In this document: piece after piece, positions 36,740-49,804 of the stretch | Numbering within the stretch: the first letter of the stretch is position 1 | Layout: the number at the start of each line of letters is the position of its first letter | Source of the DNA: Enterobacter kobei | GTDB taxonomy: Bacteria > Pseudomonadota > Gammaproteobacteria > Enterobacterales > Enterobacteriaceae | Assembly (NCBI RefSeq): GCF_001729765.1 | Contig: NZ_CP017181.1 | Coordinates: 2,170,001 to 2,234,000 of the forward strand | Length of the DNA: 64,000 nt | Direction of reading: 5' to 3' | Translations under genes and position numbers: made by a program | Notes under the pieces: generated by a model | Database searches by the model: none | Seen by the model: only the letters and a program-made list of their open reading frames with translations | Told to the model about the DNA's origin: nothing

Positions 36740-36768
36740 GTCCGCTTTGTGCCAGAAGCGGGCATTGC
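36740..36768. repeat. 29-bp dispersed repeat, copy 1
   Basis: This element begins GTCCGCTTTGTGCCAGAAGC and ends GGGCATTGC. It matches 37966-37994 over 29 bp with about five differences, in the same orientation. The two copies flank the 36873-37643 gene. Confidence 0.65.
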
Positions 36769-36841
36769 TAACATCAATATAAATTGTTCTATGGGGCGCA
36801 TGTCATTTGCAGTATATAAAGAAGAAATTAAAAGATTGTCA

Positions 36842-36867
36842 AATAAAAAGCCCCTCTACAGGGGCTG
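36842..36867 (-). terminator. Terminator after the 256-aa island gene
   Basis: AGCCCCT-CTAC-AGGGGCT, read on the minus strand, is followed by TTTTTATTT. It is a strong intrinsic terminator six bases past the stop of the minus-strand gene at 36873. Confidence 0.85.
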
Positions 36868-36872
36868 AGTTT

Positions 36873-37643
36873 TTACTGTTTACCACGTTTAGTCATCTCA
36901 TCTGCTAACTGTGAAGACCAATAATGTTGATTCTTCGCATCTAATATGAAGTGTAGCGCTCTCGCGCACTGTATCTGAGCAGACTCATAAGCATGGATAT
37001 TACCAACTGAAGTAGGAACTAAGTGGGTTTCAGGTGTGTAGTATTGGTAGATGCTCGTTTGTGAAGGATGAACATATTCGCTAAGTATGTCATACGTCAG
37101 TTCAAAATCGCTTTCTCTCCCCTTAGTCTGTTTCATCTCATCTTCATAGAGATCGCGTAAAGCATTCATCACATGCTGACTGACAGCAAGTAGGTTTTCA
37201 AAACGATGCTTAGTCTCTTCAGTAAACATGTAGTCGTTAGGGTCAAATACTCCTTTCTGAATCTTTTCTTGCTCTGACTTTTTAAATCGGGAACTGTTCG
37301 TAAAGCCCAGGATGACATCGAGAGCTTTATCTACACTTTCGCGGCCGCTTTGGTTCGTCAGGATCTTCTCCACTTTCTTGTTTAAGAGTCGTGAGAAAGC
37401 ATGTGTTTCAATCATCCCCCGGCTAACGACACAAGCGGTTTGGTATCGTTCGTTTTCGAGGAGGAGAAGCGCATCATCAAAGATATCTATCTGCCTGTTC
37501 ATTAGCAAATTTGCATAGTTAGCGAGATACAACCCCTGATCAGGATTATGCATCTTTCCGACAACTACACCGTTAACCTTGTTCAGCGCAGCTCTGGCGG
37601 CTTTTGCCTCGTTTAGGCTCTGCTCTATAAGTTCTTTAAACAT
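36873..37643 (-). CDS. Helical protein of unknown function (DUF5677/HEPN-like?)
   Basis: This 256-residue, nearly all-helical soluble protein has no signal peptide or membrane segment. A block ALLLLENERYQTACVVSRGM in the first half and YDILSEYVHPSQTSIY in the second resemble abortive-infection-type and DUF5677 helical proteins, where a late S-x-x-x-H-P motif is common. That likeness is weak and only by eye. It has its own terminator and a lower GC content than the paa genes. It is the first gene of the island. Confidence 0.6.
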   Translation of the reverse strand: MFKELIEQSLNEAKAARAALNKVNGVVVGKMHNPDQGLYLANYANLLMNRQIDIFDDALLLLENERYQTACVVSRGMIETHAFSRLLNKKVEKILTNQSGRESVDKALDVILGFTNSSRFKKSEQEKIQKGVFDPNDYMFTEETKHRFENLLAVSQHVMNALRDLYEDEMKQTKGRESDFELTYDILSEYVHPSQTSIYQYYTPETHLVPTSVGNIHAYESAQIQCARALHFILDAKNQHYWSSQLADEMTKRGKQ

Positions 37644-38101
37644 GCTGTGTTTCCTTACAGGATAATGTGTCTCAACAAGTAATCATTCCAGCTTTTGCCA
37701 GCTTCTTGATCTGTTCTTTTTATAGCAAGGTATTATGCTGAAGAGAGGGGCACCAATCACTAGGATCTTCTCCCAACGATAAGTATAAACCCACCGATGC
37801 TGTAATTATCCCGCTTAATTAAACAAACCACTTTTGGTATTCACTGTAGCCCAATGTGACCTGCCCCTTGTTATTGATACGCAACCACGTTAGCAAAACC
37901 CCCACCTGCTTGCTAGACCACTCGAACGTCCGCTTCTCGCTCATAGCGGACATCGGCCTGCAAAAGTCCGTTTCGTGCCAAAAGCGCGTATTGCAAAGTC
38001 TGCATTGCATTCACCGGAAAGGTACAATGCAGACGATTAGATTACCTCTGCCAGTCACGGAAAAGCTCCAAATGAGGCCTGGCTGAGGAGCTGTTGACCT
38101 T
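37644..38101. other. Gene-free segment with dispersed repeats
   Basis: This 458-bp segment has no convincing gene. A possible 63-codon frame at 37819-38010 is made mostly of repeat sequence. It holds GTCCGCTTCTCGCTC...AGCGGAC (37928-37951, an imperfect palindrome) and the second copy of the 29-bp repeat (37966-37994). Confidence 0.5.
37966..37994. repeat. 29-bp dispersed repeat, copy 2
   Basis: This element begins GTCCGTTTCGTGCCAAAAGC and ends GCGTATTGC. It is the direct-orientation partner of 36740-36768. Confidence 0.65.
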
Positions 38102-38626
38102 CTATTTCAGCTTCTGCCTCAGATCGATATAGACATCAGTCAGCTTTGCGACATTGGCTTCATCCATGGAGAGTTCTGAGAAGTCAACAAACCAGTTTCC
38201 AGTACTGTGCTTATTGATAACAAATAGCTTTTTACCGTTCAAAAATCGATACTCAACATCGTAGTCTTTATGGGTCCACGAGAGATTATCCGGAATAGTG
38301 AATTTTGCCGGCTGCGCAGGATTTTGCGGATCCCATTTTAAAAAGCCAGTGTACATGGTTATCCAGCTTTCGAGGCTGTCCTTCGTAACATATCCGAAGT
38401 GACTCGACATATCCCCACCGTAGTATATAGCCATTACTGCATATTCGCCTTTATCGTCAAGGCGAAGAATTCCATCAAAACCATCTTTGTACTGCGGTTC
38501 ATTGACCAGCATCACTTCAACACCGGTTTTGTACTGTGTCCAGGTATAATAAAAAGCCGGCTTCCCGGGCGTTGAACAGCCCGCCGTAAGTAACACAAAT
38601 ATAAGCCCTAAAATTCTAATCATCAT
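38102..38626 (-). CDS. DUF2931-like lipoprotein
   Basis: This 174-residue lipoprotein has a signal peptide ending in the lipobox LLTAGC (Cys17). The mature domain begins PAFYYTWTQYKTGVEVM and contains a WVDFSELSMDEANV segment, typical of the DUF2931 lipoproteins often found near type VI secretion effectors. An immunity role would fit that family, but no effector, VgrG or PAAR gene is recognisable here. The ribosome site TAGGGAATA precedes two tandem ATG codons. It may be an orphan left after loss of a larger cluster. Confidence 0.6.
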   Translation of the reverse strand: MMIRILGLIFVLLTAGCSTPGKPAFYYTWTQYKTGVEVMLVNEPQYKDGFDGILRLDDKGEYAVMAIYYGGDMSSHFGYVTKDSLESWITMYTGFLKWDPQNPAQPAKFTIPDNLSWTHKDYDVEYRFLNGKKLFVINKHSTGNWFVDFSELSMDEANVAKLTDVYIDLRQKLK

Positions 38627-38676
38627 TATTCCCTATTTAATAAAAACCATGTCTTTATCACAGTAAAAAAATATAT

Positions 38677-38880
38677 TTAATTTCCTTCGCTGAGGTAAAA
38701 CGAGGGAGAAATGCCGCATGGGTACTTAATAGCGAACAGACCATTAAGCCTGAGTGCATAAAACCGCCGTTTCAGGTCTTCCTGACTTACGTCACAGCTT
38801 TGGAATACTGGAAGGACATTTTTCCAGCTCTGACGGCAGTTCCAGTGCAGCCAGTCCCACGCAATTTGTACAACTGCCAC
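38677..38880 (-). CDS. Small protein of unknown function
   Basis: This 67-codon frame starts with GTG, preceded on the minus strand by AAGGAG with eight bases of spacing, which favours a real start. It is rich in Trp and Cys (IAWDWLHWNCRQSWKNV) with a following basic segment DLKRRFYALRLNGLF. I recognise no family. It may be the N-terminal part or remnant of a larger gene. It lies 50 bp upstream of the DUF2931 gene on the same strand and may be cotranscribed with it. Confidence 0.35.
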   Translation of the reverse strand: MAVVQIAWDWLHWNCRQSWKNVLPVFQSCDVSQEDLKRRFYALRLNGLFAIKYPCGISPSFYLSEGN

Positions 38881-39103
38881 TTAATCACTCCTTATCAGGA
38901 TTGTTTTGATCCCGCTGCATCGACAGCTTCGATTTATCTTGTGATAGTCCGCAAAGCTGTAAATGGGTAGCCAGGTGAAAGCAAAGGCCCTGTTTTCACC
39001 CTGCATACATACACATCTATGTTATATCGGCAAAAAAACGACTTGCATGAGCGGTTGTTTGAGCTAAATGTGACGCTTCACTAATCAGAAGAAAGCCGTC
39101 AGG

Positions 39104-39145
39104 TTCTCGCTCACAGCGGCTTATATCAAATGGATGTATGACAGG
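39104..39145. repeat. TCGCTCA-AGCGG dispersed repeat, copy 1
   Basis: The core TTCTCGCTCACAGCGGC is followed by an ATATCAAATGGATGTATGAC block. The same two blocks appear at 49053-49095 with few differences. Short related cores are at 37928-37951 and 49202-49227. Confidence 0.6.
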
Positions 39146-39188
39146 CTGGCTTAGCCAGATTTAGGGCAACAAGAAGGTGAACACGTCA

Positions 39189-39814
39189 ATGTCGAGTCCC
39201 TGTACGAAAGATTTTGGCACAGTGGTAGAGGGGAGTTCAGGGGCGTTATCGTTTGGACTGGTACCGTGCCTGGTCATGGCTGGGGTCTTCACCAGTCTGT
39301 CACGAAAACAGGCATACCGTACTAGCTTATGTTAGCGGCAGCCCTGGTTGCTACGGTGGGATTCTTCTTGTGCATTTTTAGCATGGCGAGAGTCATTAAC
39401 GACGTCGTGTCAACCAATATGGTGAGACGTTTGCCGCTTTCCATGGGGCGCTATTGTAGTGACGATGCGGGCCTGTGGGTATCTGTACCGCAGGGGGTAG
39501 AACTCTGGGTAAGTGTCTATGACTCAGGCTGGACGGTCTTACACAAAAATGCAGTCAAGTTCCTTGAGACTACACCTGACCCTTCCGTGGCCCTTGAATC
39601 CTTTGCTGACTTAACGAGCCCCACAAGCTGGAGTGGCAGCCTTGCAAACATATGGCAGGCACGAGCTGACGCTTTCGGTGAACTCATCCACCACCCGCGG
39701 GCTGACATTTCAGACGCTGCAAGAGACATCCATGAGCGCTTAATGCTTATGATTGAGCGTCAACGGGATCGGGAACAGCAGGAAGATCGTAAAGGCGAAC
39801 AGCGATTTGAGTGA
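39189..39814 (+). pseudogene. Frameshifted two-helix membrane protein, unknown
   Basis: Two frames overlap by 7 bp. The first, 39189-39335, encodes 48 residues beginning MSSPCTKDFGTVVEG and a hydrophobic segment SFGLVPCLVMAGVF. The second, 39329-39814, starts with another hydrophobic helix LAAALVATVGFFLCIF, then a soluble part ending in a charged helix (LMIERQRDREQQEDRKG). Only the first frame has a plausible ribosome site (AGAAGGTG). Together they read like one protein of about 205 residues broken by a one-base shift; coupled translation of two proteins is the alternative. No family was recognised. Confidence 0.4.
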
Positions 39815-40894
39815 AGACATTTAATCGGTCTCGGCTGAGCGACACGGCGTATCACGCTTCAGAATCATATGTTTAAAAGAATGTGGTGTTTTCCATCAGC
39901 CCTGGTTCGGGTAAACGGCGAGGTAGCCGCAGTTCGCCAGCAGTGCCTCGCCAGATATCCTGATGCAAAGACCCTTTATGACGCTGTCGGTAGCCCGGGA
40001 GCTAGTTTTTTGTCGCTTCCCGACTCGGCTGAAACAGCTTCGCTCGTCTCTGCGGCAGCGTTGATTTGTGCCCGAAATGCTTCCAGCCTCTCCGTCGGAC
40101 ATTTCATATCAAATCGTAAACGGTGTGAAGGATCGCTGAACTTAGATGCTGAAACTTGGGCGTCCCGTTAGGCTCAATATATCAGGGTTGGGCGATGCGC
40201 ATGTCTACCGACAAAATCTGCGGTACAAGCTGTTTGATTGTTGGCAAGGGAAGGGCAAAGCTTGTGCAGGGGATATGTCATTGATGTTTGCGCTTGAGAA
40301 CTGTCGTCCGCTTGGTACCAGAAACCGACGTTTATTTAGCACTTTGCTGAATTTTTCCATCCTCTCTGTATCTCGTACCATACAGAATCGTTATGGCGTT
40401 ATATAGTCAGTTTATCAACATCTGAAGCTCTGGTATTTCGAATGGGTTGAAGGTCCATTATCAGTTAGGCGTTGGGCTTTTAAGTAGAAAGGTTGGTGAT
40501 GATGAGCGTAAGCGAGTTCTGCCAAATGTCGATTGAAGGGATCATCAGTACGATGGCGTTTATTGCCGAACAGATGCAACAGCGCATGTAGCAAAAGGGC
40601 ATGATAATAGCGCAGAATGTAGTGATGCTGAAAAAATAGTACTTCTCACGTTTCCCCTGTGGAGTATGACACCCCCCAAAATCTCACTGCAAAACGCATA
40701 GCATAAAAAATCCGCCCTGCAATGAGAACGTAATAAGCACCTACTAATTTCAGTAGTCACAAAAGTTGAAATAATATGTGGATTAGAATAAGAATAAGTT
40801 TACTCTGTAGTCATTGTTTCGAGCAGCGTGGTGAAGTTTATCTGCTTGGGATTTTTAATTAACTCTGGTTTGAGATTTCTCTTCTCACAAGGAT
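39815..40894. other. 1.08-kb segment without a convincing gene
   Basis: Short frames at 39869-40171 and 40146-40406 have no good ribosome site or recognisable domain. A 30-codon frame at 40499-40591, preceded by AAAGGTTGGTG, is the only one with a possible start signal. The last 200 bp are AT-rich and probably hold the promoter of the gene at 40895. The segment looks like decayed coding DNA. Confidence 0.4.
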
Positions 40895-42334
40895 ATGATT
40901 GTGGCAAAGCCTAAAACTCCTTCTAAACTGATTAAAGGTAATATATTTGAATATTACGTACCTAAAATACGCGGGGCAAAACCAAGGCCTAAGCAGATTA
41001 TTAACAAAAAAGATCCAACTAAAAAGATTTATGATAAAAGCAAACCAGCTAGTTTTTTAAAAAATTCTTTTACGAAGACGACAAGAATCCCATTCGGAAG
41101 TGGCGCAAAAAAAAATCTTTCAGCGCATTACCCGGCACTACCCCTACCACAAATTGTACATGCCGCGCTTGAGTGTGGGTATGGTCGTACAGGAATGTGG
41201 TCATCTCATCTTCTTCTAAATCATAACGAGTCACTTGAACTGGCGTCTTACTTACTTAAAAGATTACTAATGGTGGCTTCATGTATCAAAGTAGGTAAAA
41301 ACGATGCTTATTTCACGCAGGAGTTTTATTCAAAAATAGAACCTTCAGAAAAAGTTGCAATCTCATTTATAGCAGGTGGTATAGGTAGTTTCATTGCTGC
41401 ATACCATTGGCTTGCTGCTGCGGGTGAAAAAATCAATGTTATGTTGCATACCAGTATTTATACTAAAGGGTTGCATCCCTCTATATTAGCAAACCCTTTC
41501 ACTACTAAAAAATCACCCGACTATCTTATTGAGTCTGATACCGGAGAATGGCATATATTTGAAAGTAAAGGTGGCACGGATGCTGGGCGTAATAAAAGGA
41601 TTCAGGAAGGTTTACTGCAGCTTGGTGCTATAACACATCTGGCATGGGCTTCACCTACTTTGACTTTAAAACAGGTGCAAACCAATGTATGTACGCACAC
41701 GTCCATTGATGCTGGCCGTCCTTTGAAGGTGCTTGCCTATGATCCCCCGGGTGAGTATACCGAAGAAGGGAAAAACATCATTCTTGATGAAGCCGTTTGC
41801 AAGCTGCTGAAAATCGTTGAAAGTTTAGATCAATTCCATGTGCTCGGGACAGAGATGAGAACAGAAGATGACTGGGAATGGAAAACTGTGCCGCAGATAA
41901 AAAACTTAATAGTGGCTCTGCCATCTCAATATTTCGATCTTGAAGAGGAGCTTAGAACACGGCTTGGATTATATTTTATCGCTACTGAAATTATTGATAA
42001 ATATAAGAGGGGAGCACAGTGGTCGGTAGAGTTCATCATAAAAAATATCGGTAAGAAAATTTCATCCTACGAATTTAAATATAAAGGTAACGCTATAGTG
42101 GAGAAATTTTTGAACTTTATTTCAGAACTTAATGAAGTTGATGAATCCACCTCCTTTATTTTACGTTGTCGTCAGCATCTGAAACTTGATGAAATACTTA
42201 ATGAATTCAATTCTTTATTTGAGAAAGTTATCATTAAATCGGCTTTACCGAAATCGCACCGAAATGGAATTAAAGGATCTGATGCTTTGACCTCAAGCGG
42301 AATGTTAATCAGAGAAGTTAATAAAGTAGATTAA
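40895..42334 (+). CDS. PD-(D/E)XK nuclease-like protein, unknown
   Basis: This 479-residue AT-rich gene has a central PD-(D/E)XK-like motif: Pro208-Asp209 (KKSPDYLIES), then Glu223-Ser-Lys225 (WHIFESKGG), separated by 13 residues and placed on predicted strands. A helix with RIQEGLLQLGAI follows, as in many restriction-like nucleases. The N-terminal 70 residues are very basic (PKPRPKQIINKKDPTKKIYDK-type composition). The C-terminal 150 residues are helical and charged. There is no signal peptide. An alternative start is the GTG at 40901, which has AAGG at a better distance. The target and partner are unknown. It stands alone, with an IS remnant after it. Confidence 0.6.
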   Translation: MIVAKPKTPSKLIKGNIFEYYVPKIRGAKPRPKQIINKKDPTKKIYDKSKPASFLKNSFTKTTRIPFGSGAKKNLSAHYPALPLPQIVHAALECGYGRTGMWSSHLLLNHNESLELASYLLKRLLMVASCIKVGKNDAYFTQEFYSKIEPSEKVAISFIAGGIGSFIAAYHWLAAAGEKINVMLHTSIYTKGLHPSILANPFTTKKSPDYLIESDTGEWHIFESKGGTDAGRNKRIQEGLLQLGAITHLAWASPTLTLKQVQTNVCTHTSIDAGRPLKVLAYDPPGEYTEEGKNIILDEAVCKLLKIVESLDQFHVLGTEMRTEDDWEWKTVPQIKNLIVALPSQYFDLEEELRTRLGLYFIATEIIDKYKRGAQWSVEFIIKNIGKKISSYEFKYKGNAIVEKFLNFISELNEVDESTSFILRCRQHLKLDEILNEFNSLFEKVIIKSALPKSHRNGIKGSDALTSSGMLIREVNKVD

Positions 42335-42416
42335 TATATTCAGATATAAACGAGGATGGGTATCAATTCCTATGACTAAGCTTCTTTCCTGCTAAAAGAG
42401 CATCAGTATGCTCCAC

Positions 42417-42440
42417 GAAGCCGAAGCCGAAGCCGAAGCC
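42417..42440 (+). repeat. Hexamer tandem repeat (GAAGCC)x4
   Basis: Four perfect copies of GAAGCC lie at the upstream edge of the IS3-family remnant. This is too short to suggest a function. Confidence 0.7.
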
Positions 42441-42479
42441 GTGAACGCTTCCGCAAGCATACATTTTTATACTTCCCGC

Positions 42480-42830
42480 TCTATATCGGCTGCAAGAAAT
42501 CTGGGGCACGGAGGCCATTGAGATGAAGTGACTTAAGTCGACAGAAGCGGAAACGCCCGACTCATAAAGATGCTTGCCAAAGCCATGCTGGATAAGTGAG
42601 CGCTTCAGTTAGTACTTGGGCGAAACTACGTTGACAGGCCAGAAGCAAGAAGCCGAGATGATGAAGTGTGATGCGGCCGATCTTTCGCGACGTCGCTGCA
42701 GTAGGGTTACGAGTTTGTCCCTACCGGACTGACTCTACGCATTCAAGAGCTGGTAATTGAACACAGACGCCTCGGTTATCGGCGCATTTGGGAGCGACCG
42801 CGTCGGCGACCTTCGTGCAATCACATGAGG
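42480..42830 (+). mobile_element. Decayed IS3-family insertion sequence remnant
   Basis: Translated fragments match the OrfA end and OrfB start of IS407/IS2-like transposases. They are LQEIWGTEAIEMK, then MLAKAMLDK, then ALQLVLGRNYVDRPEAR, and finally LRIQELVIEHRRLGYRRIW at about 42727-42795. Stops and frame changes interrupt them, no terminal repeats were found and the catalytic DDE core is missing. It is a dead fragment that shows past mobile-element activity in the island. Confidence 0.6.
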
Positions 42831-43013
42831 TATATCTCATTCTTGATTCTGGCGGGCCAAATGAGCCTTGCCGCAAAAAACTGAGAACGGCTGACACAGT
42901 TTGACAGCGGGTTGTGATTAACTCATTAGCTGACCGTCATACGTATAAAATATTACTCAATTCTCAGCGAAAACTGCCGTTAATAATCATATGGATTGAA
43001 AGGAACAGAAACA

Positions 43014-43517
43014 ATGAAGCAACTATGGGAAAAACTGGAAGTCATTCTGCAAGACCGCGACCCTGAGGTATTAATAGATCTTGCACCTCCGGCCACAGAT
43101 GAAGAAATCGTCGCGTTAGAGCAGGCCCTGAGTGTAATCTTGCCAGCCGATTTTGTAGCCTTCATGAAAATTCACAATGGTCAGCGTGGTATGAGCCATG
43201 GATTATTTGATGATTGCGAATTCTTATCCACTTCACGCATTTTGCAGGAGTGGCGTGTCTGGAAAGATTTACTTGATGGTGGCGATTTTGATGGAGCTGA
43301 GTCGTGTCCGCAAAGTGGTATTCGTTCGGAATGGTGGAATCCCTCCTGGATCCCGTTTACTTACAATGGAGCGGGCGATCATCTTTGTCTTGACCTTGCC
43401 CCGACTGACGCTGGGATTCGCGGGCAGATTATCACGCTCTGGCATGATGATGGGGAGCGTAGAAAACAAGCGGACAGTTTCAGTGATTGGCTCAGACAGT
43501 ATGTAGAGCAAATGTAG
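43014..43517 (+). CDS. SMI1/KNR4 (SUKH) family protein
   Basis: This 167-residue protein has the SUKH-superfamily signature: a helix ATDEEIVALEQALSVILP, then ADFVAFMKIHNGQ, giving the conserved LP-x-D-F...HNG pattern at residues 43-56. Aromatic strands follow (WIPFTYNGAGDHLCLDLAP) and a final helix. SUKH proteins are often immunity proteins against nuclease toxins, although many stand-alone ones have unknown roles. I chose the ATG at 43014, with AAAGGAAC before it, over an in-frame TTG. It ends 37 bp before the HNH-like membrane gene with no terminator between. Confidence 0.8.
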   Translation: MKQLWEKLEVILQDRDPEVLIDLAPPATDEEIVALEQALSVILPADFVAFMKIHNGQRGMSHGLFDDCEFLSTSRILQEWRVWKDLLDGGDFDGAESCPQSGIRSEWWNPSWIPFTYNGAGDHLCLDLAPTDAGIRGQIITLWHDDGERRKQADSFSDWLRQYVEQM

Positions 43518-43554
43518 GCTTTTTTGCAATTGATTCGATTAGCCAGGAGGGTAA

Positions 43555-45093
43555 ATGGATTTAACATATGAAGACTTAAAACAACAGCGCCTGCAAAAAC
43601 TCTTCCACGATTGCCAGCAGCAAGTGTTGTCACAAATTATTGGGCCTTTTGGGCTTTCAACGGCCATGTTTGAGGATCGCAATGGCGGCAATGTAACGAC
43701 GATGCATAATTTCGAGCGTGAAGAGTCGGATTTCATCGCTGATAAAGACATGTCCAGTCATGCGAAATCGCGTGAGGATTACCAGCGCAAAGAATATGAA
43801 AGTAAAGATTTTACAAAAAAAAGCGTGAAACTCCGGGCCGGTGGTATTGATGGTTATACGGGAAAAACGACCAACGCGGCGGATATGGATCTCGACCATG
43901 TCACTTCACTAAATACATTGTCCAAAAATAAGAAAGTGCATCTTGCTCTTGAAACCGGGAAAGGCGTTGAAAAAGTCGTCAAAATGGCCAACTCCGACGA
44001 AAACCTGGTAACCACACATAAGTCGATTAACCGTTCAAAAGGCGCTGCTGAACTCGATACTTTTGCAGAAAAAAATGGTGAAAGATTTGAGCTGGACCCA
44101 GAACGAGTAGCAGCAGCGAAGAAACAATCTAAGGACCATATTTCGACAACGCTTAACTCGGCGCTAATGAAAAAACAAAGCGCAGAGTTGTTGCAGACAG
44201 GCGGCCAACAAGCGTTGCAGATGGGGCTCAGACAAGCTCTTGGGCTATTGCTCACTGAACTGGTAAATGGCTTGTTTAACGAGTTCAAAGTGCTTATTCA
44301 ACATGGTGTTGAAGTGGGAAAAACATTGTTTGAGGAGGTCCGACAGCGCTTAATGCGCGTAGTTGCTTCCGTGACCAAAAAAATTCCCGATGCGCTGGGA
44401 CAAATGTTCCAGGGTGGAGTGAGTGGATTCATGAGTAATTTACTCACCTTCTTGCTTAATAATTTTCTCTCTACCGCAAAGCGTTTCGTGACCATGATTC
44501 GGGAAGGGCTGTTGGGACTTTTCCGGGCATTTAAAATGATTTTCTTCCCACCGGCACATATGACGGCACAGCAAGCGTTACAGGAAGGACTGAAAATGCT
44601 CACTGCTGTCATCGTGACTTCGGTCGGTATGTTGTTGAACGAAAGCATCGCGACGTTTATGGCGACTGTACCGTTTCTGAAACCTTTTGCAGATATGTTA
44701 ACCCCAGTTCTCATAGGCATTGCCACCGGATTGCTTTCTGCCTTTCTCTCGTATCAGATTGATACGTTTTTTGATCGCTCCCGTTTTACGTTAAGCGAAA
44801 AATTCATGGATGAGATGCTCGCAGACGGTATACGTCGTGAAGCGTTTGCCAGTGAGCTGGTGACACTTTCAGAACGTTCGCTGGGTAATATTGAAAATTA
44901 CGCGACTGCTATAACCCAGTATCAAGCTATTGGGGAAAACCTGGCTACTGCAACGATTTCGACTAAAGCAACACTGGCATGTCTTGAGAGAACTACTGCC
45001 GAGACAGCTGTGCAAGTGGCGCGGAGTACTGCTGCAATTGTGTTTATTAATGAAAGCCAGGCCGAAATTGATGACTTTCTAAAAAATATTTGA
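43555..45093 (+). CDS. Membrane protein with HNH nuclease-like motif, unknown
   Basis: This 512-residue protein begins after a perfect AGGAGG ribosome site. The first 170 residues are charged and hold an HNH-like arrangement: Asp114-His115 (MDLDHV), Asn150 in ENL and then H155 and N159 in THKSINRSKG, a usual beta-beta-alpha-metal layout. Residues 215-420 are hydrophobic and amphipathic helices, with the clearest membrane segments at about 348-362 and 382-400. The C-terminal 100 residues are a soluble helix. There is no signal peptide. It is followed 10 bp later by a coiled-coil gene. I know no characterised family with this layout. Confidence 0.7.
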   Translation: MDLTYEDLKQQRLQKLFHDCQQQVLSQIIGPFGLSTAMFEDRNGGNVTTMHNFEREESDFIADKDMSSHAKSREDYQRKEYESKDFTKKSVKLRAGGIDGYTGKTTNAADMDLDHVTSLNTLSKNKKVHLALETGKGVEKVVKMANSDENLVTTHKSINRSKGAAELDTFAEKNGERFELDPERVAAAKKQSKDHISTTLNSALMKKQSAELLQTGGQQALQMGLRQALGLLLTELVNGLFNEFKVLIQHGVEVGKTLFEEVRQRLMRVVASVTKKIPDALGQMFQGGVSGFMSNLLTFLLNNFLSTAKRFVTMIREGLLGLFRAFKMIFFPPAHMTAQQALQEGLKMLTAVIVTSVGMLLNESIATFMATVPFLKPFADMLTPVLIGIATGLLSAFLSYQIDTFFDRSRFTLSEKFMDEMLADGIRREAFASELVTLSERSLGNIENYATAITQYQAIGENLATATISTKATLACLERTTAETAVQVARSTAAIVFINESQAEIDDFLKNI

Positions 45094-45103
45094 GAACAGT
45101 AAG

Positions 45104-46138
45104 ATGAGTTTGTTAAACAAGCAGGAACTTCAGGTTATCCAGGCGTTTTCGTCCGCAGATTTACCGGAACGTGTCTTTCGCGACAGCAACATTAAAGAAT
45201 TGATTAGCAGTATGACGGAGGAGCAGCAAACGGTTCAGAAGAGCGCGAAGGATCTTGACCGCCTGCGCAGGGAACAGAGGGACGGAAACTTTATAACTAA
45301 CTGGTGGAATGATCGCGACGATTTGTTACAGGATGCGCAGATTGATCTCAATAAAGCCATTGGTCGCCTGACGCAAAAATCTTCTCAGTTATTGATTGTC
45401 AATACGGCGCTATCCAAGCTACTGAACGAGCAACAACAGATTTTATTGAATCAGCAAAACATTCTGGAAGGCCAAACACGCTCCCTTGCTGAACAAAATG
45501 AACAAATCCTGAAACAACAGGTGCTACTGGAAGAACAGCAAAAAGAGATTAATAAGGCCAACCAGGGATTAATGGATGCAAAAGGGGTAACGCAAGATCA
45601 GGCTAAGCAGCTAATTGGCTGCGTAAAAAGGGTGACAGAGGCGGAAAACAAAATTGGCGAGGCAAACGCCACCTTGCTGGCAGAACTTGAACAGCGTATT
45701 GCTAACTTTTCTTCTGATCTTGCGCAAAAATTGCAAAGTGGCCTTGATGACCAGGTAGGACGGCATAGCATGCTCGAACAGACAATGGTGGACAATCAGG
45801 CTGTTCAAAAGAGTTTCGTTGAGAAGATGCAGCAATCCTTGTTGCAGGAACAGCAGTTGTCTCATCAGCAACTGCTCGGCGAGCTTGAGCGAAACCGGAT
45901 GGATTTAGTTAATTCGGTTAAATCAACCGTAAACCAGTGTGATGCGCTCCAGCATGAAATATCCGTTGTTGTGGCGCAACAAGCTGATAGGCAAACAGGC
46001 ATTGATCATGCTATTGCTGAGTTACAGGTGAATTTTCTCAAATCCCGATTTCGTCATCGCTTTGTACTGACGGTGATGGGTTGCATTGTTGGGCTTTCTG
46101 TCGGTTGGCAAATTGCGCAGCACTTTATGATCTTCTGA
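45104..46138 (+). CDS. Tail-anchored coiled-coil protein, unknown
   Basis: This 344-residue protein is almost wholly helical. Residues about 105-155 form a Gln/Glu-rich coiled coil (LNEQQQILLNQQNILEGQ), and heptad-like sequence continues to about 310. One C-terminal membrane helix (LTVMGCIVGLSVGWQIA, about residues 323-339) leaves only a few residues after it. It lies 10 bp after the HNH-like gene and has similar base composition, so both are surely one transcript. A partner, scaffold or sensor role is inferred from shape alone. Confidence 0.7.
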   Translation: MSLLNKQELQVIQAFSSADLPERVFRDSNIKELISSMTEEQQTVQKSAKDLDRLRREQRDGNFITNWWNDRDDLLQDAQIDLNKAIGRLTQKSSQLLIVNTALSKLLNEQQQILLNQQNILEGQTRSLAEQNEQILKQQVLLEEQQKEINKANQGLMDAKGVTQDQAKQLIGCVKRVTEAENKIGEANATLLAELEQRIANFSSDLAQKLQSGLDDQVGRHSMLEQTMVDNQAVQKSFVEKMQQSLLQEQQLSHQQLLGELERNRMDLVNSVKSTVNQCDALQHEISVVVAQQADRQTGIDHAIAELQVNFLKSRFRHRFVLTVMGCIVGLSVGWQIAQHFMIF

Positions 46139-46750
46139 TTGTGTTAAACCGCATCTGCATAATGGATGCGGTTTGGACTGACCGCACACAGAAAACAATT
46201 CCTGTCCTCACGACGAAGCATTTTCGATGTCCTCCGGACTGATTTCCCAGAGACGCTCGGTGCATATAACTTGTACAAGGTTCTGTCAGCTGCGATGCAG
46301 CCGTGATTTCGCTGGCTTAAAGCCACGTTCCGAAACGCCTTTGACTATGCCATACGCCACAATCGGCCGCCGGGAGCAACACATTTATGGCGAACGGATG
46401 CTTATTGGATCATTATCTGCTTCGTTAGCTCCTTCTGAAGTTGGCGGAACCCAGCCTGAGCTTCTGATTGCCTATGTTAGTTAAGGAGTCTGGCCCGTAT
46501 TTCTTTATTCGGCGTAAGGGGGATATGGGATCGTGTTGCAATGCTGGATACGGAATGACAGCGTTCAACAACCGGTATGACTACTTCGATTTTAAACGCA
46601 TAGGGTTAATACTGAGCACTCATAGGCATCTTTCTTAAAGCCAACTTAACGACTCCGGAGTCGTCTCTCATACCTGTGACGATTCAAATATTCTGTTGCA
46701 GTTCACTTTCTGATAGGATTAATCTGAATATTTTCCACTGGGACAGGGAT
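46139..46750. other. 612-bp segment with hairpin and no convincing gene
   Basis: AAACCGCATC (46146-46155) and GATGCGGTTT (46165-46174) form a perfect 10-bp stem 7 bp after the coiled-coil gene. It may end that operon although no T-run follows. Frames at 46144-46326 (minus) and 46227-46484 (plus) have no start signals or known domains. The last 80 bp lead into the lipoprotein gene. Confidence 0.5.
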
Positions 46751-47893
46751 ATGAAAAAAACATTGATTGCAACATTAGTAAGCATAACGATGTTAACCGG
46801 GTGTGGGCCTAAAGAGTTAACTCCAGAGCAAAAGCAGGAAGTGGCGGCACTTAAGGCTGAGCTGTCCCAAACGGAGGGAGAAATCTCTGCAGCGAAACAT
46901 ATTGATCAACAATTTTCAGGTGGACTGATCAAGAATTTAATCACCGCAAGATTGGAAGTTTTAGGAACGAATAAGGCTCTTTTAGAACAGCGTATAAATG
47001 CAATTGAGTCAGGAGCCAAAATTGACGTCGTTGTTTCAGGTGTCAAGCCAGACCCTGAACTTGCTGCTTCTATTAAAGCTGAAATGGAGGACCTGGCAGT
47101 AAAAATAAACGAAGCAAAAACAGATGCCAGCCAGTACAGTGGTGGTTTAATACAGGTCTTAAAACTGTCAACGGTTGCTACTGAAGAGCAAAGCATGGCG
47201 ATGTTGCAGCAAAAATATCTCACGGCTAAATATGGGCTTGCTGAAGTTAAGCTTGCACCGGTTCAGGATAATGTTGCAACCGCCAGCAGTAAGAAGGACA
47301 CAACCGCTGAAACAAGACATGAACAGCCCCCTCTGCTGCCACCAGCTGATGGTCCGTTCGGACTCGAGGCTGGCCTGACTCAAAAGAATATCGAAGATAT
47401 GATCGGGGCAAAGCTAAAACCACTTCCTGACAGCGTAAATCTCTATACTTCCGATAAGTTACCGAAGTCCAACGCTGATTTTGAAATGTATGGTTTGTTG
47501 ATCTCGCCTAAAGCAGGCTTATGCCAAATCAGAGCTGTCGGTAAAAACATTGATACTGATAGTTATGGGCTTGCCTTGAAATCTCGCTTTGAAGAGTTGA
47601 GTAGCTCGTTAAGCTCGCTTTATGGAAAGGCTGAAACCACAGACCTTTTACTGTCAGGTTCTATCTGGAAAGAACCTCAGGACTGGATGATGGGGCTTAA
47701 CAAAAAGGAACGATTCCTTTCAGCTACCTGGAAGGGAACGCAGGAAACGCCGCTGAAAAATAACATTGGTGCTATTTCTATTGAAGCAAGAGCGAACAGT
47801 TCTGCGCAGGGGTATGTTTACCTTCAGTATACATTTACAAATGATGATGTTTGCCAGGCTGAGATCGATGGGGCTAAAAAAAGCTCTCTATAA
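46751..47893 (+). CDS. Lipoprotein with internal duplication, unknown
   Basis: This 380-residue lipoprotein has signal peptide MKKTLIATLVSITMLTGC with the lipid-bearing Cys18. Two similar helical units follow: one with AAKHIDQQFSGGLIKNLI and one with EAKTDASQYSGGLIQVLK, each preceded by a L/I-KAE helix and followed by a leucine-rich helix. After a Pro-rich linker (PPLLPPADG) a C-terminal domain begins FGLEAGLTQKNIEDMIG. The start at 46751 has AGGGA before it. A strong terminator follows. The function is unknown; the envelope location is clear. Confidence 0.75.
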   Translation: MKKTLIATLVSITMLTGCGPKELTPEQKQEVAALKAELSQTEGEISAAKHIDQQFSGGLIKNLITARLEVLGTNKALLEQRINAIESGAKIDVVVSGVKPDPELAASIKAEMEDLAVKINEAKTDASQYSGGLIQVLKLSTVATEEQSMAMLQQKYLTAKYGLAEVKLAPVQDNVATASSKKDTTAETRHEQPPLLPPADGPFGLEAGLTQKNIEDMIGAKLKPLPDSVNLYTSDKLPKSNADFEMYGLLISPKAGLCQIRAVGKNIDTDSYGLALKSRFEELSSSLSSLYGKAETTDLLLSGSIWKEPQDWMMGLNKKERFLSATWKGTQETPLKNNIGAISIEARANSSAQGYVYLQYTFTNDDVCQAEIDGAKKSSL

Positions 47894-47906
47894 TTTTTCT
47901 TAATCA

Positions 47907-47928
47907 GGCCCCTTCGCAAGGGGCTTTT
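47907..47928 (+). terminator. Intrinsic terminator after the lipoprotein gene
   Basis: GCCCCTT-CGC-AAGGGGC is followed by TTTT, 15 bp past the stop codon. Stem and T-run are both present. Confidence 0.85.
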
Positions 47929-48357
47929 ACTATTTCACTATAAGGGCTCAACATATGTTATATGATGCTGACCTGCTCACTGTTAATTAATACGTTGTGA
48001 TCTTTAGTATTTCTTCTTCAGAAACGTGAGGGCATCCCTATAAAGACGCGTTGTTCTGAAATCACCCTCTATAAATGACGAAGGAAATCTCGGAGCAAGG
48101 CTAAGTCAGGCCGATAGCGGCGAATTAGTATAGAGCCAGATAATAACGCATCACTTTTTTCGAGATGTTATTTCGATCTTACTGGCGATAGGTGTCTCTG
48201 TACCGGCCTCAGCAATTCATCGTTGGTCTGCGGAACATCTCGTTATAGTGATGTCGCGTCAAACGACGAACAACGGTGATGTTTCTTCTTGATATAGCAT
48301 ACTGAAAATGACGTTACTGAACGCCCCACAGACATATTTGATGACAAAGACAGTTAG
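47929..48357. other. Gene-free segment
   Basis: This 429-bp segment has no frame with a start signal and no recognisable repeat or RNA gene. It lies between the lipoprotein terminator and the stop of a minus-strand gene. Confidence 0.45.
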
Positions 48358-48855
48358 CTACGCATCCTGCTCTAAGACCACTATAAATTCCAGTCTACGC
48401 GGTCTGATAAAACCTTGCACTCCAAATGCTGTAAGCTGCCACAATGGTTTGCCATCCACCTCATCAACCGTTTCCAGCGTGCAACCCATTTCATCAAGCA
48501 AGAGGGTTAATTCTTTTGAGTCGGGCTCCAGTAAACGATCCACCTTACTGTGCCCCATATAAGACCACTCGCCATTCTTTTCTTTAAAATAGAGGAATGG
48601 GCTACATTCCTTTTGCACTTTCTCAAGACGGGTGAAGTAGTTTCGGTACTCATTATCGCCAGAAACGAACAATAGATTATCCAGAGGTCCATTGACCTCT
48701 CTGCGCGCAAAGATGGCGCGAATTAATGTGGAGGAATTGCCACGCGAGGGATTTAAAAAACCGCCCTGCGACAGTCCCTTTTCGCCCGGTTTCAGGAATT
48801 TATAACGCTTCTGTATGTCCCTGAACGCATAGTTTTCACCGACGGTAAATGCCAT
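48358..48855 (-). CDS. Unknown 165-aa protein, possibly SRA-like DNA reader
   Basis: This 165-residue soluble protein has ribosome site AGGAGAAGAGCA. The N-terminal pattern F-x-V-G-x-x-Y-x-x-R-D-I, the GLSQGGFLNP segment, then LLFVSGDNEYRNYF and PFLYFKEKNGEW follow the order seen in SRA-type base-flipping domains of McrA-like restriction proteins. In those proteins a GG...GG pocket and a D/E-rich strand read modified DNA. The likeness is by eye and partial, and no HNH partner domain is fused to it. It is a single gene with no operon neighbour. Confidence 0.5.
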   Translation of the reverse strand: MAFTVGENYAFRDIQKRYKFLKPGEKGLSQGGFLNPSRGNSSTLIRAIFARREVNGPLDNLLFVSGDNEYRNYFTRLEKVQKECSPFLYFKEKNGEWSYMGHSKVDRLLEPDSKELTLLLDEMGCTLETVDEVDGKPLWQLTAFGVQGFIRPRRLEFIVVLEQDA

Positions 48856-49342
48856 TGCTCTTCTCCTGAAAAAATCTATCTAAAAAATAATTAACGACCA
48901 AAAAGTTGAAAACTTTATCCAATAGTAGAAAAAATCGCGACTTCATGCTGTTTATAGTTTGTCGGGAATTGCAAGCATGCCTGTAATCCATACCATTCGC
49001 TTATTAGATAATTTCCGGAGAATAGTTCAGATATCCTCCAAGGCCAATGTACGCTCTTCGCTCATAGCGGCCATATGAAATGGAGGCATGACAGGATTGT
49101 TTAGCAGCAGGAAGAGGACGTTTGGGCATCTGTGACCTGCTCCCGGTTAATTATCTCATGCCGTTGTTAGTACAACTCTCCTGCAGTTGAGACACATGCT
49201 AACTTCCGCTATTCGCTCAAAGCAGACCTGAAGACCAGCTAGCCTGGCCTCTGCGAGCCAACAGCAGACGTTAAGCGTTAGTTGACGGATCATACTCCCA
49301 CTGCGATTCGTCACTGTAAATCGTACCATCATCATCCATTAC
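48856..49342. other. Gene-free segment at the island's right edge, with repeats
   Basis: This 487-bp segment has no convincing gene. It contains the second TCGCTCA-AGCGG element (49053-49095) and a degenerate third core (49202-49227, CTTCCGCTATTCGCTCAAAGC). A GTTAGTTGAC stretch before 49343 may mark where the N terminus of the next gene was lost. Confidence 0.45.
49053..49095. repeat. TCGCTCA-AGCGG dispersed repeat, copy 2
   Basis: The core CTTCGCTCATAGCGGC is followed by ATATGAAATGGAGGCATGAC. It aligns with 39104-39145 over about 42 bp in the same orientation. Confidence 0.6.
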
Positions 49343-49804
49343 TTGGGCATTAAGGTGTCTTGCAATCCGCAACATCTTTCTATACAGGTAGATACGTTAG
49401 CGAATGCTGATAAGCATCATCTGATGCTCAGGCTTATGAACCATGTTTATGTCGTTGATATGATTTTCAGAGCCAAGATTACTGGACAAAAGCACCAATA
49501 CACCGCGTTAAATACGGCAGATACCCCGACTGCAGACGAGCTTCTGACAAAGATGTTTGAATGCACTAAATGGTATATTCAACACGTCGGTATAATAATG
49601 AACACGTCTGATCTTTCTGAAATCGTTAAATTTCGTTTCGTCGATGGTGGGTATGGTGAAATGAAGGCAGGAGATATGCTCAATCATGTCCTTTTTCACG
49701 GTTCATATCATCGCGGCGCGGTGGGCTGGATGCTTTCAGAAACGGGAATAGCCCCTCCTAAGGATGTATTAACCGTTTTCCTGAGGGATCATCATCACGA
49801 GTGA
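49343..49804 (+). pseudogene. DinB/YfiT-type metalloprotein, N-terminally truncated
   Basis: The 153-codon frame starts only at a TTG with no ribosome site. From about residue 25 it matches the four-helix DinB superfamily. The first metal His is in LMNHVYVVDMIFRAKI, and the second and third are in MLNHVLFHGSYHRGAVGWML, with the family strand VKFRFVDGGYGEM between. The usual first helix (F-x-Y-x-x-W-A type) is missing and is replaced by unrelated sequence. The first helix was probably lost at the island edge. Members act with bacillithiol, mycothiol or glutathione, or have unknown roles. Confidence 0.55.

Follow-up and report, generated by a model that had tools for sequence, protein, structure and literature searches.

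A three-gene cluster of Enterobacter kobei matching the candidate anti-phage system PDC-M40 encodes a predicted membrane-associated HNH nuclease with changing partners

What might three adjacent genes encoding a SUKH protein, an HNH-like membrane protein and a coiled-coil protein do for the bacterium that carries them? The question is raised by positions 43014-46138 of a 64,000-nucleotide stretch of Enterobacter kobei DNA (assembly GCF_001729765.1, contig NZ_CP017181.1, positions 2,170,001 to 2,234,000, forward strand), which is called the window here and is numbered from its first letter. An initial annotation, made from the letters alone, had described three intact genes in one direction with gaps of 37 and 10 base pairs (bp) and no terminator between them, and had suggested a membrane-associated nuclease toxin or anti-phage system with its own immunity protein, of a layout belonging to no named system. 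The gene arrangement was borne out by the open reading frame (ORF) list and the sequence, all three genes lying on the + strand, and a terminator scan found zero terminator-like sites inside either intergenic gap. The layout does have a name, however: all three proteins match models of the PADLOC candidate PDC-M40, and it is therefore already catalogued as a phage-defence candidate. The genes are as follows.

43014..43517, + strand: gene A, 167 amino acids, ATG start, SUKH (SMI1/KNR4) protein, PDC-M40A
43555..45093, + strand: gene B, 512 amino acids, HNH nuclease and membrane protein, PDC-M40B
45104..46138, + strand: gene C, 344 amino acids, tail-anchored coiled-coil protein, PDC-M40C

The matches extend over nearly the whole of each protein, with 276 bits for A (E = 3e-83, model positions 1-166 of 169), 898 bits for B (E = 5.8e-271, 1-546 of 547) and 558 bits for C (E = 2.3e-168, 1-343 of 344). 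PDC-M40 is a candidate entry of PADLOC-DB 2.0.0, and the window locus is a member of it, with the same three genes in the same order and on the same strand and no difference seen; by these profile matches, the cluster is a full copy of the catalogued candidate anti-phage system. One paper (PMC11811056) describes systems labelled PDC-x as candidates from Payne et al. 2021 that are unpublished. At 16 loci picked as carrying both SUKH and C, the gaps or overlaps between A, B and C range from -158 to 47 bp when starts are taken from the longest ORFs, and the ratios of nonsynonymous to synonymous substitution (dN/dS) against the closest named relative are 0.23 for A, 0.09 for B and 0.20 for C, which indicates purifying selection. 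Since the spacing is close at these loci and selection is purifying, the arrangement is more than chance, and A-B-C is a real, conserved gene cluster.

Most of what can be said about its chemistry comes from B, whose parts, together with the anchor of C, are placed as follows.

43720..44169, + strand: HNH domain of B, residues about 56-205, from invariant residues, predicted model, Foldseek and PHROG
43897-43899, + strand: H115 of B, HNH residue
44002-44004, + strand: N150 of B, HNH residue
44029-44031, + strand: N159 of B, HNH residue
44395..44787, + strand: membrane half of B, residues about 281-411, from hydropathy
44788..45090, + strand: helical extension at the C terminus of B, residues 412-512, proposed docking part for C, from model, length rule and co-divergence
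46061..46117, + strand: single hydrophobic anchor of C, residues 320-338, hydropathy 1.86

On its own, B had no match at E 1 in Pfam, the GmrSD_C model (PF07510) included, or in NCBIfam; the likeness shows through the family profile only, which retrieves GmrSD-type HNH proteins, a Pfam scan of five of these giving GmrSD_C in four and GmrSD_N in one. The residues H115, N150 and N159 are invariant in 59 of 59 relatives and in 44 of 44 members of a second, overlapping set. The predicted model of B has predicted local distance difference test scores (pLDDT) of 85-92 from residue 71 to 200 and places strands at 111-115 and 151-155 and a helix at 156-162 (pLDDT 87-92), which is a strand-strand-helix layout. 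Its best five Foldseek matches were all HNH proteins (E 0.13-0.76, none of them significant by E value), and a PHROG endonuclease VII profile matched residues 53-176 with an E value of 1.5e-5. The HNH-like motif seen in the initial annotation, which had also made its proposal depend on a nuclease fold and on a conserved SUKH neighbor, was thus confirmed together with the fold by the invariant residues, the family profile, the predicted structure, Foldseek and PHROG. Judged from alignment and model, B carries an HNH nuclease domain of the H-N-N type, for which cleavage is predicted. B resembles GmrSD_C/HNH nucleases (PF07510) and Cas9 HNH domains in the H-N-N residues, the predicted layout and the profile; it differs from GmrSD in having no GmrSD_N domain and a hydrophobic half instead.

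This hydrophobic half, described as membrane-embedded in the same annotation, is supported by hydropathy stretches within residues 348-402, with peaks reaching 1.85 (the family mean rises to 1.6 and dips near 321-340), and seems to be a membrane anchor. Behind it stands a helical extension that is predicted with pLDDT 83-93 from residue 421, and its length varies with the gene found beside B. The stretch after the conserved Y400 measures 91-123 residues in 27 of 27 B relatives paired with C (two assigned to C by eye), 103-104 residues in 9 of 9 paired with a PDC-M09A-like protein, and 26-61 residues in 8 of 8 that stand beside JukA, beside a small protein or alone; this length rule tracks clades, so that the independent cases are fewer than the rows. 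Furthermore, the head of C follows the C terminus of B beyond what the membrane core of B explains (partial r 0.81, p 0.0005, at the 16 SUKH+C loci; 0.77, p 0.001, at 13 loci with near-copies dropped; at least 0.56 leaving out any one locus). We read the C-terminal extension of B as a probable docking part for C.

C matched no Pfam family at E 1, and NCBIfam gave two models far below their cut-offs. Its model consists of long helices (mean pLDDT 79), and one hydrophobic stretch stands at residues 320-338, in agreement with the tail-anchored coiled coil originally described. In the alignment the head (residues 1-190) is conserved, the rod is variable both in sequence and in length, and the hydrophobic C-terminal anchor is kept. 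Zorya combines a ZorA-B motor with nuclease effectors and is loosely comparable to this cluster in joining nucleases and a long coiled coil in a defence system anchored at the membrane; it differs in that C has no ZorA model match at E 1 and no motor proteins were seen here.

These observations can be assembled into a reading to which we give somewhat better than even chances: a PDC-M40 system in a horizontally acquired insert, acting against phage with B as a membrane nuclease effector, C as its sensor or dock and the SUKH protein as a restraint. B would be the effector, its N-terminal-half HNH nuclease held at the inner membrane by the conserved hydrophobic half, and its helical extension would dock on the head of C, which is conserved. 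As a helical rod anchored by its tail and differing in length between loci, C would place B at the membrane and may act as sensor or trigger, while A, an acidic SUKH protein of one sub-clade, might bind or restrain the HNH domain. Upon infection, C would release or cluster B, which would then cut DNA at the membrane as it enters. The reading draws on the three PADLOC matches, the HNH evidence, the joint occurrence of B and C, the length rule, the co-divergence and the insert, and also on the B relatives found next to JukA or M09A-like proteins and in jumbo phages and on the Gabija genes that adjoin the cluster in the closest named relative and a B-C pair on a viral contig. The anti-phage function is plausible, and we infer the membrane topology, the sensing by C, the restraint by SUKH and DNA as the target. 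The result names the likely effector chemistry of PDC-M40, a candidate for which we found no published test, and predicts contacts of the B tail with the C head and perhaps of SUKH with the HNH domain.

The role of SUKH is where this reading meets two rivals built on toxin and immunity pairs. A is a SUKH protein, as first annotated (Pfam PF09346, E 1.5e-26), and SUKH is recorded in PMC3482391 as the immunity partner of many HNH toxin families, including Tox-DHNNK, a polymorphic-toxin HNH family with the motif DH, N, N, N, K. D114 H115, N146, N150, N159 and K162 of B agree by eye with this printed motif, N146 reaching at least 90% only among 23 close relatives and K162 being K in 39 of 44. B therefore shares with Tox-DHNNK and Imm-SUKH, compared by motif alone, both the printed motif and the partner (PMC3482391), and differs in an HNH domain placed in the N-terminal half, in its link to the membrane and in the lack of any toxin delivery parts seen. 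An interbacterial toxin, polymorphic or contact-dependent, with SUKH as immunity protein would fit this common pairing of SUKH with HNH; against it, Pfam and NCBIfam gave no trafficking domain for A, B or C, and phages carry relatives of B, so that we hold this explanation to be most improbable. The same pairing also speaks for a toxin-antitoxin or addiction module, in which B would be a host-acting membrane nuclease toxin and SUKH its antitoxin, stabilizing mobile DNA, with phage defence secondary or absent. Its location in an insert, a close relative on a conjugative Klebsiella plasmid and the divergence of SUKH with HNH beyond the membrane core all agree with such a module. At the 16 SUKH+C loci, SUKH follows HNH with a partial r of 0.48 (p 0.0005), and at 13 loci with near-copies dropped the value is 0.49 (p 0.003); against residues 1-55 of B, which lie nearer on the DNA, it is 0.14 (p 0.19). 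We take this coupling as a hint only, the co-divergence signal being ambiguous.

The distribution of SUKH tells against addiction. A scan of species genomes with a 23-row B alignment and two short conserved peptides, which favours close relatives, yielded 26 loci. C lies directly downstream of B in 23 of them by the first C profile (weakest E 8.1e-5), with the caveat that coiled coils match one another easily; a broader profile adds L039, which brings B and C together to 24 of 26, and at L043 and L044 a similar ORF follows B by position and architecture, as judged by eye. In a single-sequence search, from which a very divergent SUKH could escape, SUKH was found directly upstream of B at 15 of the 26 loci (L019-L031, L033, L037) and was not found at the other 11; none was found beside the JukA-type and M09A-type B genes. 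Consequently, the conservation on which the initial annotation had relied holds for B with C and only partly for SUKH. As SUKH was found at 15 loci compared with 24 for C, B and C form the core and SUKH looks like an accessory of one sub-clade and not a universal immunity protein. We consider the toxin-antitoxin explanation unlikely, and retain SUKH as a possible restraint within the anti-phage reading.

The partners of B change over a broader range of relatives. Among 246 genomes of the family, own included, 12 have a B-type match, which in 2 of them is a strong M40B match; among 369 genomes of the class the C profile matched 6, the window's own strongly and 5 others weakly. B relatives occur in 67 of 72,556 plasmid records and in 7 of 50,697 phage records, these seven records all coming from Aeromonas jumbo phages about 260 kb in size and representing four phages, some of which have two entries. 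In the two jumbo phages viewed, an M09A-like gene lies 11 bp upstream of the B relative. A PDC-M09A-like membrane protein also adjoins other distant B relatives, and small proteins with a hydrophobic N terminus stand beside B at L054, L116 and L118 (grouped by eye; the one at L054 has a weak DUF533 match, E 0.0087, below the cut-off, and the other two match no family). An M09A-like protein is directly upstream of B in 9 of 44 tree loci, 2 of which are the near-identical jumbo phages; no M09A match was seen among the window proteins scanned, and the B relatives at M09A loci match M40B, with no M09B listed. In the tree of 44 B proteins the partner labels need 7 changes, against a mean of 25 when shuffled. 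The M09A (9) and JukA (3) types form single groups with support of 100/100, and SUKH+C (16) forms a single group with weak support of 64/47; C without SUKH needs 3 changes. The tree omits L031, L042 and L043 as near-copies or duplicates, L055 because it equals L019, L059 and L119 for being broken or short, the short versions of included loci, and the later loci L120-L123 and L154. Some near-copies are still present in the JukA and phage rows, and a number of branches are long and uncertain. On these alignments, B is the element that a wider family has in common, with partners that change, which is a new observation here.

Several side observations concern these relatives. In jumbo phages D9 (L060, 2003-4599) and LAh10 (L061, 1943-4539) the M09A-like gene is followed by the B relative, and the B gene of LAh10 is labelled "putative cobalamin adenosyltransferase", which looks like a misnomer; source names of the B relatives P0030, P0052 and P0086, such as "ribosomal protein L17" and "AI-2E family transporter", likewise look like annotation errors. 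The B relatives at L053 and L084 carry a long extension at the N terminus, and no partner gene is evident beside them; they are possibly a stand-alone form. Scans of viral contigs gave two loci: one (L120, 1-7335) has a B-C pair adjoining the GajB and GajA genes of Gabija, and the other (L121, 4682-6418) has apparent phage tail genes (by eye), then a 322-residue gene, then a B relative cut by the contig end.

The JukA-type relatives bear most directly on what B may do. A JukA homologue (PADLOC, E 1.8e-59) lies 9 bp upstream of a B relative in two genomes (G230, G003) and one Enterobacter plasmid, so that B relatives take the effector position there. The family search for JukA gave 34 matches in 29 of 243 genomes, and at 2 of 30 loci B adjoins JukA (with 1.5-kb flanks); the JukA-type B genes are near-identical (96%) and were counted as one lineage. 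The window cluster has C in place of JukA, which had no match among nine window proteins at E 1 or in the window's genome at E 1e-20. At one JukA locus (L124, 2924-3637), a neighboring ORF weakly matches the C profile (1.8e-6) and ZorA models, probably through a shared coiled coil. A review of jumbo phages describes Juk (jumbo phage killer) as a sensor with diverse effectors, among which JukB forms a pore on the early vesicle (PMC13282480). By analogy, the arrangement suggests that B beside JukA is a nuclease counterpart.

The same analogy could be drawn in another way, with B as mainly a membrane-perturbing effector like JukB and its HNH domain regulatory or secondary. The place of B beside JukA, the pores reported for JukB in the same review (PMC13282480) and the mean pairwise identity at the 16 loci, which is 74% for the membrane core and 44% for the HNH part, agree with it. 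However, all 44 relatives of the second set retain the three HNH residues, and no JukB model appears among the PADLOC matches listed for B, the presence of such a model in the library not having been checked. This alternative is therefore improbable in our view, and the nuclease remains our preferred effector.

A broader proposal, which we hold tentatively and at slightly less than even chances, makes B the founding member of a superfamily: HNH effectors tethered to membranes, which would have been swapped between four or more sensor modules (C, whether SUKH is present or not; JukA; PDC-M09A; small membrane proteins). Bacteria, plasmids and jumbo phages would all employ them against phage DNA, cutting it at membranes, perhaps at the moment when the membrane-bounded vesicles of early jumbo-phage infection are opened. 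If true, PDC-M40, part of Juk and the phage-borne module would be branches of one effector system. B ties PDC-M40 to the Juk-type and phage-borne modules, and the interest lies in this shared effector, which raises the question of whether a nuclease tethered to the membrane can get at phage DNA from which soluble nucleases are shut out.

It is important to consider the points that weigh against an anti-phage membrane nuclease docked on C. A PDC label is not proof of defence, as PDC-M63AB and PDC-S04, tested by another group, gave no evidence of activity (PMC12409345), and a search for the name PDC-M40 found no paper in the library covered. The model of B has pLDDT of just 39-68 in the membrane half, and its topology is for this reason a putative one; hydropathy is support and not proof, since A, a soluble SUKH protein, peaks at 1.73 in the same scan as B and C. 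In raw terms SUKH correlates more strongly with the membrane core (0.68-0.72) than with HNH (0.60), and its correlation shows no peak at HNH in a sliding window along B. The head of C also follows HNH weakly (0.34, p 0.02, at 16 loci; 0.20, p 0.18, at 13 loci), and the co-divergence of C with B may come from linkage of adjacent DNA. Lastly, the enrichment of defence genes among the neighbors, described below, is modest.

The genomic setting was approached by comparison with same-genus regions.

36762..49385: insert carrying the cluster, about 12.6 kb, unaligned in same-genus regions (blastn, E 1e-3)

Of 12 same-genus genomes (own included), 10 have a match to the left flank, and three regions were fetched from these. 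In all three, the left flank, which ends near 36.76 kb, and the right flank, which begins near 49.39 kb, align 0.4-2.2 kb apart and nothing between them aligned; the cluster therefore sits in an insert of about 12.6 kb. The GC content of the insert is 38-51%, compared with about 58-61% in the left flank and 46-55% in the right. One side is bordered by what we take, by eye, to be a paaY-like gene and the other by a presumed DinB-like/glutathione-peroxidase-like region. A housekeeping role in the cell envelope or in DNA uptake, with no link to phage, would fit with the modest defence-island signal and with the fact that we found no anti-phage test in the literature; the absence of the insert from the three relatives and the rare, patchy occurrence in family genomes, plasmids and phages given above make it very unlikely.

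As for that signal, PADLOC matched 67 families at E 1e-10 among 132 neighbor ORFs from 23 loci, with PglX, SspE, type IIG and IV enzymes, HEC-06, Orf5 and WYL among the 25 shown. In a control of 132 ORFs drawn from 19 regions, which were chosen arbitrarily, it matched 32 families, with DISARM-type and type I methyltransferase models included. These counts are of families and not of ORFs, one ORF can match many, and the control was not taxon-matched; at least one ORF behind the Orf5, HEC-06 and SspE matches, at L038, encodes a protein that aligns over about 70-160 residues only. Two cases were picked by eye and give no rate: in the closest named relative, GajA (1043 bits) and GajB (835 bits) of Gabija adjoin the cluster divergently, and on a Photobacterium plasmid a Csx1/CARF gene stands about 3.7 kb from a B relative.

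Local signals around the cluster are of two kinds.

43545..43550, + strand: ribosome-binding site of B, AGGAGG, four bases 5' of the B start, by eye
46146..46174, + strand: 10-bp inverted repeat after C, possible weak terminator, by eye

Of the good ribosome sites first described before A and B, that of B was confirmed by eye; A is preceded by a weaker AAGGA at 43000-43004, and an in-frame TTG at 42996 is a possible alternative start. By eye, no convincing site stands ahead of C. The terminator scan of 42500-46700 found 8 sites, against 4.4 (standard deviation 2.1) in shuffles, and the repeat after C, which has no strong T run, is absent from its list.

Other ORFs of the insert were also inspected. 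The 161-residue ORF at 39329-39814 (+) matches the last 120 or so residues of PD-Lambda-4_A only (7.3e-34) and looks like a remnant. The 479-residue ORF at 40895-42334 (+) matches no family, and contains an ESKG stretch that, by eye, we take to be reminiscent of a PD-(D/E)XK nuclease motif. At 36873-37643 (-) lies a DUF5677 protein (2.9e-8) with a weak, sub-threshold match to AbiV (0.037).

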